Assembly (NCBI GenBank): GCA_030154025.1
Contig: JASKKT010000004.1
Coordinates: 1-64,000 of the forward strand
Direction of reading: 5' to 3'
DNA length: 64,000 bases
Origin: Methanolobus sp.
Lineage (GTDB): Archaea; Halobacteriota; Methanosarcinia; Methanosarcinales; Methanosarcinaceae
The position numbers and the translations under genes were made by a program. The notes under the pieces were generated by a model. It made no database searches. It was given only the letters and a program-made list of their open reading frames with translations, and was not told where the DNA came from. How positions within the stretch are numbered: position 1 is the stretch's first letter; each line of letters opens with the position of its first letter. Shown piece after piece: positions 28,968 through 34,407 of this stretch.

Positions 28968-30953
28968 ATGGATAATAGGGATAGTGAAACCCTGCTTGCA
29001 AAAGGCACAGGCAGGGAATGGATAATAACCAACGGCCTTGGCGGATACGCTTCATCCACAGCCATAGGGATGAATACAAGAAAATACCATGGCCTGCTTG
29101 TGGCGGCCATTAACCCCCCGGTACACAGGAGAGTGATGCTCTCATCCCTTGACGAGGAGATACAGGTCGGCAGCCGGGCATACCAGTTTGCAGCACACCA
29201 GTACCCGGGTACCTTGCACCCGCAGGGCGATCGCCATCTTGAGGACTTTTCCACAGAACCTTTTCCGGAATTCCGGTATTTTGCGGAGGATGTCTCTGTC
29301 AGAAAGAAGATAACCATGGTTCACGGGGAGAACACCGTAGTTGTCCGCTATGATATCTCAAACCCTGTGCACGACAGTATTATTTTCAGGGTGCTTCCGC
29401 TTGTGAATAACAGGGACATACATAAACTGACCAGATCGGTAGAGCTGCAGTTCAAGCAGCATCCACACGGAACCGGCACCGTTCTTGACAGTAAAGAAGG
29501 AAAGCTTTACATTGGTTCGGACATCCCCTTCACGCCTAAGGCCTACTGGTATTACAATATGGAATACATGACAGAGCTTTCAAGGGGATATCCATACAGG
29601 GAGGATAACTTCAATCCGGGTTACTTTGAGACTGAGGTCGGCAGGGGCGAGTCGTCTTTCTTCATTGCAGCATCCACTTCGGGGATATCACTTGATATGG
29701 ATGATATTGACAGGATATTTTCCCATGAAATGCAGCGCAGGAACCAGCTCACTGAAAAGCAGGCCCATAAAGATGATTTTATCAACAGGCTGACCAGAGC
29801 CGCAGACTCATTCATAGTACGCCGGCAATCGACCGGTTCAAGATCGATCATAGCAGGCTATCACTGGTATTCGGACTGGGGAAGGGATTCCATGATCTCA
29901 CTGCCTGGCCTCACCCTGGTTACCGGAAGATTTGGCGATGCCAGGAACATACTCGCAACATTTGCAGCCAGCTGCAGCGAGGGACTTATCCCCAACTTTT
30001 TCCCGGAGAGCCCTTCCGGTGAGATAGCATATAATACAGTGGATGCCTCCCTGTGGTTTGTTCAGTCCCTCAGAAAATACCTGGACTATACAGGCGACCT
30101 GGAGTTTATATCAGGAATCTGGGATACTGTCGAGAACATAATAGACTATTATTGCAGGGGAACAAAACATGATATAAGAATGGAAGCAGACGGCCTGATA
30201 TCACAGGGCGGGCAGCTTACCTGGATGGATGTAAAGGTAAGAGGCAGGGAACTGACATCACGCCGGGGAAAGACATGCGAGATCAATGCTCTGTGGTACA
30301 ACGCCCTGCTGCAGGCATCGGCAATGGGAGAGCAACTTGGCAAGGATACCTCCGCGTTCTATGAGATTGCGGAACTTACGAAAGAGAACTTCGAAGGCGC
30401 GTTCTGGAATGGGGACAAGGGCTGCCTCTATGACTGCATTCCCTGCCCCGAAAATCCCGATGACACTGAACCTGCATGTCCGAAAGATGCCTCTGTGAGG
30501 CCAAACCAGGTACTTGCCGTATCACTGCCTTTCACAATGCTTCCTTCTGCCAGTGAAAAAAGTATAATGCAGGTTGTGAAGGATGAATTGCTGACCCCGT
30601 ATGGCCTCAGGACACTTTCCCCGTCAGACCCGTTCTACATGGGTGTCTACCGGGGTGATGCGGAAGGCAGGGACACAGCCTATCATAACGGCACTGTCTG
30701 GCCCTGGCTGCTCGGCCCCTATATAACGGCATACATTAAGGTCAACGGGCATTCAAACAAAAGCAGGGATGAAATGAGAAGCCTGCTCAAGGGAATGGAA
30801 GTGCATCTGGAAGAAGCAGGCATCGGCACCATCTCCGAAGTATTCGACGGGGACACCCCCCACAGGCCCGGCGGTACTATTTCCCAGGCTTGGAGCGTGG
30901 CTGAAGTACTGCGTGCCTATGTGGAAGACATCGGCGCTGGTGACCTGACATGA
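28968..30953 (+). CDS. Amylo-alpha-1,6-glucosidase / archaeal-type glycogen debranching enzyme
   Basis: EWIITNGLGGYASSTAIGMNTRKYHGLLVAA; AGYHWYSDWGRDSMISLPGL; YHNGTVWPWLLGPY. Confidence 0.93.
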   Translation: MDNRDSETLLAKGTGREWIITNGLGGYASSTAIGMNTRKYHGLLVAAINPPVHRRVMLSSLDEEIQVGSRAYQFAAHQYPGTLHPQGDRHLEDFSTEPFPEFRYFAEDVSVRKKITMVHGENTVVVRYDISNPVHDSIIFRVLPLVNNRDIHKLTRSVELQFKQHPHGTGTVLDSKEGKLYIGSDIPFTPKAYWYYNMEYMTELSRGYPYREDNFNPGYFETEVGRGESSFFIAASTSGISLDMDDIDRIFSHEMQRRNQLTEKQAHKDDFINRLTRAADSFIVRRQSTGSRSIIAGYHWYSDWGRDSMISLPGLTLVTGRFGDARNILATFAASCSEGLIPNFFPESPSGEIAYNTVDASLWFVQSLRKYLDYTGDLEFISGIWDTVENIIDYYCRGTKHDIRMEADGLISQGGQLTWMDVKVRGRELTSRRGKTCEINALWYNALLQASAMGEQLGKDTSAFYEIAELTKENFEGAFWNGDKGCLYDCIPCPENPDDTEPACPKDASVRPNQVLAVSLPFTMLPSASEKSIMQVVKDELLTPYGLRTLSPSDPFYMGVYRGDAEGRDTAYHNGTVWPWLLGPYITAYIKVNGHSNKSRDEMRSLLKGMEVHLEEAGIGTISEVFDGDTPHRPGGTISQAWSVAEVLRAYVEDIGAGDLT

Positions 30954-30992
30954 CCCATAAAAGCTTATAAGCAAGTAAGTCAAGTGACTATC

Positions 30993-31205
30993 ATGGATGA
31001 GGTGTGTCTTAATATCGGAGATGCAGCCGGCCACGTGTACAGGCTGCTTGAAAAGGGCGGGTCTAATCTTACCAACGTGAAGAATGTACTCAAGGAAAGC
31101 GGTTTTGATTCCCAGACTGTTTTCATGGCCATAGGATGGCTTGCAAGGGAAGACAAGATCTGCATGAGAAAGAACGGTAACGTCTGGTCCATCAGTCTCA
31201 AATAG
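30993..31205 (+). CDS. Small winged-helix protein (DUF2582-like)
   Basis: MDEVCLNIGDAAGHVYRLLEKGGSNLTNVKNVL...MAIGWLAREDKICMRKNGNVWSISLK. Confidence 0.75.
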   Translation: MDEVCLNIGDAAGHVYRLLEKGGSNLTNVKNVLKESGFDSQTVFMAIGWLAREDKICMRKNGNVWSISLK

Positions 31206-31403
31206 AACTCGGCCAACAACCATCAAGAACGGAAGGGCTGCCTGCAGGTGTACCGGCAGGATAAGATGATACAACCGGCCTTGGGACTGAGAGGACATAT
31301 CCCGCAATAAAAACAAGGCTGGAATTCTAACAGAATCCCTGCTGAAAGTTAACGTATGATATCACTATATCTGCAGCCTGTCATAACTGGCAGTCACTCC
31401 AAT

Positions 31404-31484
31404 TTAGAGCAGAAGCAGTAATATCTGCCATAGTATCACAAGGACGATTATGGCGATCAGAATACGAGTTATCCAGTAAAGCAT
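31404..31484 (-). CDS. Candidate 26-aa hydrophobic microprotein MLYWITRILIAIIVLVILWQILLLLL (single TM)
   Basis: ATG at 31484 preceded by GGGGAGTGAT (SD, 31489-31498) and TATA-like AACTATAAAAC at 31520-31530; TAA at 31404-31406. Absent from the ORF track because of length. Confidence 0.6.
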   Translation of the reverse strand: MLYWITRILIAIIVLVILWQILLLLL

Positions 31485-31519
31485 TCAAATCACTCCCCAT
31501 TAGACTTAGGTCACTATAA

Positions 31520-31530
31520 GTTTTATAGTT
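31520..31530 (-). promoter_or_regulatory. Putative TATA box for the 26-aa micro-ORF
   Basis: AACTATAAAAC ~25 nt upstream of a short leader carrying the SD. Confidence 0.5.
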
Positions 31531-31557: not shown

Positions 31558-31990
31558 CTACTGGAGAACTTCCTGATTCACCACATTCTGCGGGCTTCCT
31601 TTAAGGAACTGACTGATATTGTCCACAGTCACTGACGTACACTCGTCCAGAGATTCCTCTGAAAGGAAAGCAATGTGCCGTGTCAGGAGCACATTGCTCA
31701 GACCAAGCAGCCTCAAAAACATCAAGCTCCGCGGCTGCAATATGACCACTGCGCAGTGAGCTCAGCAGGGCAGCCTCATCAACAACCTCGCCCCTAGCTG
31801 TGTTGATCAGTATGGAGGTCGGCTTCATCTTCAGGAGTTCCTCAGCACCTATCATCTTCTCAGTAGAAGGGGTCAGAGGTACGTGTAATGTGACGATATC
31901 CGGTATTATGACCCGGGCAGCCTGGCATTCACATTGTTCATAAGAAAAGCGCCAGCTGGCAAAATGTCCCCGAATGCAGAACCCATATCT
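31558..31990 (-). pseudogene. D-isomer 2-hydroxyacid dehydrogenase relic (frameshifted, N-terminus missing)
   Basis: LHVPLTPSTEKMIGAEELLKMKPTSILINTARGEVVDEAALLSSLRSGHIAAAELDVFE then, in another frame, LLGLSNVLLTRHIAFLSEESLDE. Confidence 0.85.
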
Positions 31991-32174: not shown

Positions 32175-33470
32175 ATGGTAGATATAGCACTGAGGTTTGG
32201 CCTGGATCCGCTTATAGTGGATTTTGTGCAAAAGATCATTCTCTCACTGATGATAGGGATCCTCATCGGTCTTGAGAGGGAAAGGCAGAGAAGCAGGGAG
32301 AAACTTTTCGCAGGTGTCAGGACCTTTACACTCACATGTATCCTTGGCATGCTGTCTGCCTTCCTCATCGATTATGCCGGGACCTCTATCCTGCTGATAA
32401 CCACGATATTCACAGGAGTGGTCTGTATATTCCTTGCCTACAACATCAACAGAGTACAAGGGAGCCTGGGACTTACAACATCCATATCCCTTTTTTGCAC
32501 CTACCTTCTGGGAGTGCTCATAGCGGCAGACCTTTACATAATATCCATTGTCAGCGCGGTAATAATCACATTCCTGCTTATCGAGAAAAAACCGCTCCAT
32601 TCCCTGGCCGAGAATCTGGCCGAGAGGGATATCATTGACGCACTGCAGTTCGTAGCCATCGCCTTCATTCTGTACCCTGTGGTTCCGGAGGAGCCTGCCT
32701 TTGGGGTCATAGACCTGAAATCTACAATACTTATTATCGTGCTCATATCCTCCATCAGTTTTGTCAGCTATGTGCTCCTCAAGAGAATAGGCGCCCGCGG
32801 AGGAATAGCCTACTCCGGTTTCCTGGGAGGGCTGGCGAGCAGTGGAGCAGCTGTCATTTCACTTTCAAACCTTTCGAAAAGAAGAGTGTCCCTGACAGGT
32901 CATATATGCACGGGAGCTCTGCTGACTATTGTCTCCATGACCCTCCGGGATGTCACTTTCGCTTTCCTTATCGACACTTCCGGGAGGATGGCCTTCCTGA
33001 TGATACCGCCTTTTCTGGTGATGTCCTTAGTCACTCTTCTGATAGCATGGTGTAAGAGGAAAGCAACGACAGTCAACGAGACCATAGAACTCAGGTCCCC
33101 TTTTGCCGTTGTCCCAGCTTTGCGGTTCGGGATACTATTCATGGTAATAACAATGATCGCCGACATAGCCCAATCCCAGGGAGGGAACATGGGGATTTAC
33201 GCAACCGCCATAGGGGGGATAGTAAGCAGTTCAGCAGTCACTGTCTCTATGGCAACGCTTGCACTGAACGGCACCATCCCCTATAGCCAGGCTGCCCAGA
33301 TAGCAGTCATGGCAGGACTAATAAGCACCCTGGCAAAGCCGTTCTACATGAAGCTCACGGGCGCCGACCAGCTTTTCCGCAGGGCTGCAATCCATTTTGT
33401 AATAATAACTGCTCTTGGAGCCGTTTCTCTTCTTATATGGAGTACATATACAGTCTCGTTGAGATTCTGA
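32175..33470 (+). CDS. MgtC/SapB + DUF4010 membrane protein
   Basis: LMIGILIGLERERQRSREKLFAGVRTFTLTCILGML followed by DUF4010-like TM region. Confidence 0.9.
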   Translation: MVDIALRFGLDPLIVDFVQKIILSLMIGILIGLERERQRSREKLFAGVRTFTLTCILGMLSAFLIDYAGTSILLITTIFTGVVCIFLAYNINRVQGSLGLTTSISLFCTYLLGVLIAADLYIISIVSAVIITFLLIEKKPLHSLAENLAERDIIDALQFVAIAFILYPVVPEEPAFGVIDLKSTILIIVLISSISFVSYVLLKRIGARGGIAYSGFLGGLASSGAAVISLSNLSKRRVSLTGHICTGALLTIVSMTLRDVTFAFLIDTSGRMAFLMIPPFLVMSLVTLLIAWCKRKATTVNETIELRSPFAVVPALRFGILFMVITMIADIAQSQGGNMGIYATAIGGIVSSSAVTVSMATLALNGTIPYSQAAQIAVMAGLISTLAKPFYMKLTGADQLFRRAAIHFVIITALGAVSLLIWSTYTVSLRF

Positions 33471-34407
33471 GCAGACGATTGCAGCAGAGGAAAACGGTTT
33501 TGACAGTATAGACGTAAGTGACCATTTCCATCCCTGGAGCGAGGAGGGGCAGTCCTGCTTCACATAGAGCTGGCTGGGAGCTGCTGCGGTCAGTACAAAG
33601 AAGATCAGGATAGGCACCGGTATCACCTGCCCTATCCTCAGGTACCACCCTGCCATCATTGCCCAGGCGGCTGCAACCGTAGCTTCGCTGGCCGGGGGAA
33701 GGACTTACCTGAGCCTGGGGACAGGAGAAGCCCTTAACGAATATCCCATGACATGCGAATGGCCTGAATATAATGAGAGGCAGGAGATGCTGGCCGAGTC
33801 CATTAAGCTCATCAGGGATCTCTGGAGCGGGGAAAAGATCACATTTGACGGCATGTACTATTGCACCCAGGACGCAAAACTATACACACTGCCTCCCCAG
33901 GATATTCCCATATATATCTCTACCATGGTACCCGAAAGTGCTCAGTTTGCAGGGTACCACGGGGATGGCATGATATCGGTCGGCGGCTCCAGGATGAAGG
34001 TATATAGGCAGATCATGGAGAAGTTCGAGTACGGAGCAAAAAGGGCCGGTAAGGATTTATCAGGCATGCCAAGGGCTATTGAGCTCTTTGTGGCATACGG
34101 AAACCGGCTTGAGGAATCTCTTGAAAGGCTGCATAAGTACTGGGCTGGCGCTTTCATTCCTGCCCAGTTCACTAATAAGATCCATACTCCCCAGATGTCA
34201 CAGCAGAACGGGGAGATCGTGGGTGATGATATCCTCAGGCAGAAGGCCTGCATCTCATCAGACCCGGAAGAGCACGCAAAGTACATAAAACAGTATATCG
34301 ACGCAGGTTTCACACATATCTACATTCATTGCGCCGGTCCCGATGAACTAAAGTTCATAAGGTCCTACGCGGATGATGTGCTTCCACTTATAAAAGAACA
34401 GAGATAA
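33462..34407 (+). pseudogene. 5'-truncated LLM-class F420-dependent oxidoreductase (G6PDH-family-like) with in-frame TAG
   Basis: QTIAAEENGFDSIDVSDHFHPWSEEGQSCFT[TAG]SWLGAAAVSTKKIRIGTGITCPILRYHPAIIAQ continuous with the 33748-34407 ORF; no start codon upstream. Confidence 0.85.

Follow-up and report, generated by a model that had tools for sequence, protein, structure and literature searches.

The window analysed here is a 64,000-nucleotide stretch of a Methanolobus sp. genome (contig JASKKT010000004.1, positions 1 to 64,000, assembly GCA_030154025.1). Between a glycogen debranching enzyme gene and a decayed dehydrogenase gene it contains an open reading frame (ORF) of only 81 bp, which is below the length limits usual for gene callers and encodes a hydrophobic microprotein of 26 residues. 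Comparison with other genomes of the genus justifies treating this previously unrecognised ORF as a gene.

The first-pass annotation of the window had listed an ATG, a Shine-Dalgarno (SD) site, a TATA-like box, a very short predicted leader and a hydrophobic helix. We re-read these signals at the positions given in Table 1 and confirm the observation. Within the window this is the only ORF in which an ATG, an SD-like site, a correctly spaced TATA-like box and a hydrophobic stretch of transmembrane grade come together, and 12 resamples of the window by a third-order Markov model produced no such case. The SD site pairs with a generic anti-SD sequence at -10.9 kcal/mol with a one-base bulge, about equal to a plain GGAGGU (-11.4). 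The TATA-to-ATG distance in the window is 43 nt. With the usual archaeal distance between TATA box and transcription start site (TSS), this places the predicted TSS near 31498-31500 and gives a leader of about 14-16 nt. A hairpin followed by a T-run likely marks the 3' end of the transcript, for which a length of about 190 nt is predicted. The block from promoter to coding region is more conserved than its flanks, since a 421-base DNA query matched only over about 68-226 in most of the more distant genomes that carry the gene.

Several of these genomes (for example, at loci L006 and L002) have a short near-palindrome, GTCAT-A-ATGAC, between the TATA box and the SD site, with the version GTCA-tag-TGAC in G002. 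This sequence, possibly an operator, is not kept in the window or in G026/G010.

Table 1. Features at the microprotein locus, in window coordinates
Feature	Coordinates	Strand	Remarks
Glycogen debranching enzyme gene	28968..30953	plus	Flanks the 3' side in every carrier (syntenic anchor); convergent to the microprotein gene
DUF2582 winged-helix gene	30984..31205	plus	Convergent syntenic neighbour; also in genomes without the microprotein
Terminator-like weak hairpin, then T-run	31321..31339	minus	About 65 nt past the stop; sequence conserved only in G002
Microprotein coding sequence, 26 codons	31404..31484	minus	Encodes MLYWITRILIAIIVLVILWQILLLLL; ATG 31484..31482, TAA 31406..31404; one hydrophobic helix (predicted)
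SD site GGGGAGTGAT	31489..31498	minus	Identical in 9/9 genomes; predicted TSS at or just before the site
TATA-like box CTATAAAA	31521..31528	minus	TATAA or TTTAAA in 9/9 genomes, starting 43-46 nt upstream of the ATG
Decayed 2-hydroxyacid dehydrogenase, frameshifted fragments	31561..31900	minus	Upstream of the microprotein promoter
MgtC (PF02308) + DUF4010 (PF13194) membrane protein gene, type A	32175..33470	plus	Candidate partner

Coding selection in nine genomes

The microprotein ORF was found in 9 of 27 Methanolobus genomes (the carriers), always as a single copy that ends at residue 26; the source genome of the window, of 2.26 Mb, accordingly has one copy. The other eight proteins are 65-96% identical to that of the window. 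A DNA pattern consisting of GGAGTGAT, 2-6 nt and ATG-YTN-NAN-TGG recovered the same nine genomes and none besides, while its reversed control gave no matches.

Across the nine genomes the reading frame contains no stop codons, compared with 4-47 in the five other frames. Its codon differences comprise 333 synonymous and 181 non-synonymous ones, and the other frames have far more of the latter kind. Divergence is 0.03 at the second codon position, 0.30 at the first and 0.40 at the third. The ratio of non-synonymous to synonymous rates (dN/dS) is about 0.01-0.16 in most computable pairs; the closest pair, separated by two changes, gives 0.30. Synonymous sites are near saturation (for example, the proportions of synonymous and non-synonymous differences, pS and pN, are 0.61 and 0.03 in one pair and 0.63 and 0.02 in another), and many pairs are saturated with pN below 0.25. 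By these measures the microprotein is under purifying selection as a strongly hydrophobic 26-residue product.

Selection for hydrophobicity alone could account for the T at the second codon positions. However, W4, R7, W19 and Q20 are identical in all nine proteins, so that there is constraint on individual residues beyond hydrophobicity. The only small residue common to all nine is A11. The mean Kyte-Doolittle (KD) hydropathy over all 26 residues is 2.3-2.8 in the carrier copies, the best 18-residue value in the window copy is 3.3, and the hydrophobic moment is low (about 0.15). By its sequence the product would belong with the single-helix small membrane proteins, which are encoded by translated ORFs of less than about 50 amino acids (aa): it has 26 aa, coding selection in nine genomes and one hydrophobic stretch long enough to span the membrane. 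The first-pass annotation had proposed a stand-alone transmembrane microprotein gene and had made this depend in part on conservation of frame and SD site in relatives. Both are conserved in nine species, as are the TATA-like box and the position, and together with the codon-level selection they support the proposal.

The codon-level pattern also bears on the idea that the locus specifies a small RNA, in which the ORF would be incidental or secondary (a dual-function RNA). Dual-function small RNAs have been reported in M. mazei (PMC11456600), and the predicted transcript of the window folds somewhat better than shuffled sequences (z -2.5). Against this, conservation has codon periodicity and includes the SD site, the 3' part responsible for the folding differs from species to species, and the locus has no match in Rfam. 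A purely non-coding RNA was rejected on the codon-periodic conservation and the lack of an Rfam match, and we consider any small-RNA explanation highly improbable.

Distribution and gene neighbourhood

Outside the genus, a profile search of 112 genomes of the family and 238 of the class and a second query of 186 genomes of the order gave only chance-level matches. Two weak matches at the order level are nearly identical to each other and differ from the microprotein gene in architecture. In a search of a genome collection only Methanolobus sp. UBA118 matched (records near the window's own genome were possibly left out). Searches of Pfam, NCBIfam, PADLOC and PDB gave no match for the protein. 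It therefore appears to be a clade-restricted new family of a known kind, the microproteins with a single transmembrane (TM) helix, and we found no named relative. A search across the Methanosarcinales with dN/dS had been suggested in the first-pass annotation. In the nine genomes dN/dS is low in most computable pairs; the family itself, which may have been expected throughout the order, is restricted to one clade of one genus.

In a tree of the debranching enzyme the nine carriers form one group, which also holds a single non-carrier, G014 (the fork joining the two halves of the carriers has 87/77 support). By this placement G014, the only non-carrier nested in the carrier clade, has lost the microprotein gene. 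Immediately after its winged-helix gene comes an MgtC/DUF4010 remnant of 64 residues, which is closest to the carrier type (59%). The position of this remnant indicates that deletion or decay removed the microprotein gene together with most of the type A MgtC/DUF4010 gene.

The surroundings of the gene differ between carriers. On the 3' side, the winged-helix gene lies between the microprotein and debranching enzyme genes in several of the nine. On the 5' side, the same-strand neighbour is an intact 2-hydroxyacid dehydrogenase gene in three carriers, is decayed or missing in the window, G002 and G009, and is a TrpB-like gene in three. The TrpB-like replacement encodes 747 aa, and its name was read from its sequence. 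Judging from this variation, the microprotein gene has outlived or switched its upstream neighbours. Since these vary and nothing lies downstream on the same strand, the gene is monocistronic in its arrangement and is neither a leader peptide nor an operon member. A leader peptide, upstream ORF or attenuator was in fact rejected as an explanation: the downstream neighbours are convergent in all nine genomes and there is no same-strand gene to regulate.

The distribution also bears on the type-I-toxin-like peptide, repressed by an antisense RNA, that the first-pass annotation had offered as an alternative. In length and hydrophobicity the microprotein does resemble the type I toxins DinQ, TisB, Ibs and Ldr, and DinQ is a single-TM peptide of 27 residues (PMC3567139). 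Unlike these, it has no detected antisense gene, is present in one copy per genome and is inherited vertically at a single syntenic locus under strong purifying selection. A simple consensus scan for an antisense promoter found no TATA-like box in seven of the nine genomes and unconserved ones in the other two. The strong SD site, preceded by no more than a very short predicted leader, also counts against a toxin, no homologs were found in viral contigs, and type I systems have so far been reported from bacteria only (PMC12390103). This alternative is not supported, and we regard it as very unlikely.

A candidate partner and the proposed function

The MgtC/DUF4010 gene lies beyond the same-strand upstream neighbour in the nine carriers, on the opposite strand and 0.7-2.6 kb from the microprotein gene. 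In a tree of these proteins from the 27 genomes, two types, A and B, are separated with 100/100 support. Type A occurs at the glycogen-debranching locus in all nine carriers and in none of the 18 non-carriers, all of which have type B. The latter is found at a polyphosphate-linked locus in the genomes of the genus that were examined and also in another genus (g14); the PPK, PPX and PPK2-type names used for this locus were read from sequence only. Intact type A and intact type B were not found together in any of the 27 genomes. G014 has a type B gene split over two contigs at the polyphosphate locus in addition to its type A remnant. No MgtC/DUF4010 gene lies within 1.5 kb of the PPK2-like gene in the carriers that retain the latter.

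The division between the two types, with the G014 remnant, suggests functional replacement. The PPK2-like gene was not detected in carriers G000, G002, G003 and G012 and is present in the other 23 genomes.

These patterns make the linked, clade-specific type A protein the best single candidate for a partner of the microprotein, although the identification is tentative and, on our estimate, rather unlikely to be right in this exact form. In other genera (eight genomes) no convincing small TM ORF was seen beside MgtC/DUF4010 genes. The protein has no PDB relatives by sequence, and its AlphaFold model is mostly helical, with a confidence score (pLDDT) of 65 that is too weak for a fold search.

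A possible parallel is MgtR of Salmonella, a 30-aa helix which binds MgtC and carries the residues LWQI (PMC6813294). The microprotein, too, is predicted to be a single hydrophobic helix, contains LWQI and is linked to the gene of an MgtC-domain protein, with type A in 9/9 carriers, lost with it in G014 and absent where type B occurs. It might, like MgtR, bind the neighbouring MgtC/DUF4010 protein and control its turnover. However, the similarity to MgtR is within the range of shuffled sequences (p 0.11-0.16), and homology was rejected for this reason; MgtR is kept as a working analogy. MgtR binds MgtC through an Ala-coil, in which three small residues recur at heptad intervals (PMC6813294). 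The microprotein, in which A11 is the one small residue shared by all copies, lacks this motif. Furthermore, the two genes do not form an operon; the microprotein gene has its own promoter. An MgtR-like peptide would be a specific form of the explanation that we favour, possible but with the odds clearly against it. Still more doubtful is a full evolutionary account, in which the clade switched to type A at the glycogen locus, gave up type B of the polyphosphate locus and gained a dedicated 26-aa regulator of an MgtC-domain protein independently of bacterial MgtR, and in which the branch without type A lost the peptide along with it.

More generally, we consider the ORF to be a genuine monocistronic gene whose product is a single-helix regulator or subunit that tunes a larger membrane protein, with a probability of roughly 0.62. 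The 'regulatory membrane peptide' of the first-pass annotation is, we infer, the best reading. The TATA promoter would start a short mRNA, on which the SD site behind the short leader drives initiation. The peptide would insert as a single helix with its N-terminus (the Met1 amine and Arg7) in the cytoplasm. The invariant Trp and Arg near the N-terminal end and Trp19-Gln20 inside the helix may then contact a larger integral membrane protein specifically and tune its activity or stability. The peptide would work in trans, and expression from a separate promoter would let its dose be set independently of the partner.

Several points weigh against this proposal. The microprotein and type A genes are neighbours, so that their co-occurrence may represent one gain and one loss (G014) rather than many independent events. 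Being on opposite strands, they cannot be co-transcribed. The loss in G014 shows that the microprotein is dispensable at least there. Finally, a moment test for a conserved helical face, as an interaction face, gave none that stands out (p=0.64).

The conservation of W4, R7 and W19-Q20 without such a face fits partner binding and a self-acting peptide alike. In the second case the peptide would act alone on the membrane, as a homo-oligomer, by changing ion permeability or as a SpoVM-like sensor of membrane shape. All 26 residues form a hydrophobic product, and a conserved buried Gln can drive self-association of helices. Low amphipathicity over a full transmembrane span is more in keeping with an oligomer than with a helix lying on the membrane surface, and the low hydrophobic moment speaks against a SpoVM-like surface helix. 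We consider a self-acting peptide unlikely.

The preferred role as regulator or subunit has parallels in bacteria and archaea. KdpF, CydX, MgtS, AcrZ and MgrB are bacterial single-TM small regulators or subunits that act on larger membrane proteins. The microprotein shares with them its size class, its one predicted TM helix and its being overlooked by annotation. It differs in having no match in Pfam, NCBIfam or PDB, an archaeal-type promoter and no operon partner. In M. mazei, MtrR (49 aa), MtrI (68 aa) and sP36 (61 aa) bind larger membrane proteins, Mtr or AmtB1, and MtrI is a stand-alone gene that is not ubiquitous in the Methanosarcinales (PMC13370731, PMC12774963, PMC10714827). The likeness lies in small Methanosarcinales proteins acting on larger membrane proteins, in the case of MtrI also from a stand-alone gene. 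These proteins are longer (49-68 aa), and for none of them has a single helix of 26 aa been described; a zinc-ribbon region is present in MtrI, and sP36 shuttles between the cytoplasm and the membrane. No homolog of the microprotein was found in other genera of the class. In M. mazei, 314 unannotated small ORFs are translated (PMC11456600). The present gene is among the very short ones for an archaeal protein, and the evolutionary evidence for it is strong. Methanogen small proteins have recently been found to act on membrane complexes and transporters (Mtr, AmtB1); to these the microprotein adds a family confined to one clade, for which an exact sequence, a promoter and a named candidate partner are available, and its function thereby becomes testable.

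A minor observation concerns a luciferase-like monooxygenase gene (33460-34407, plus strand). Its N-terminal part is missing, and at 33565 an in-frame TAG replaces the Trp codon of the relative G006. We read the gene as a probable pseudogene and not the TAG as a pyrrolysine site; the G006 copy is broken differently.
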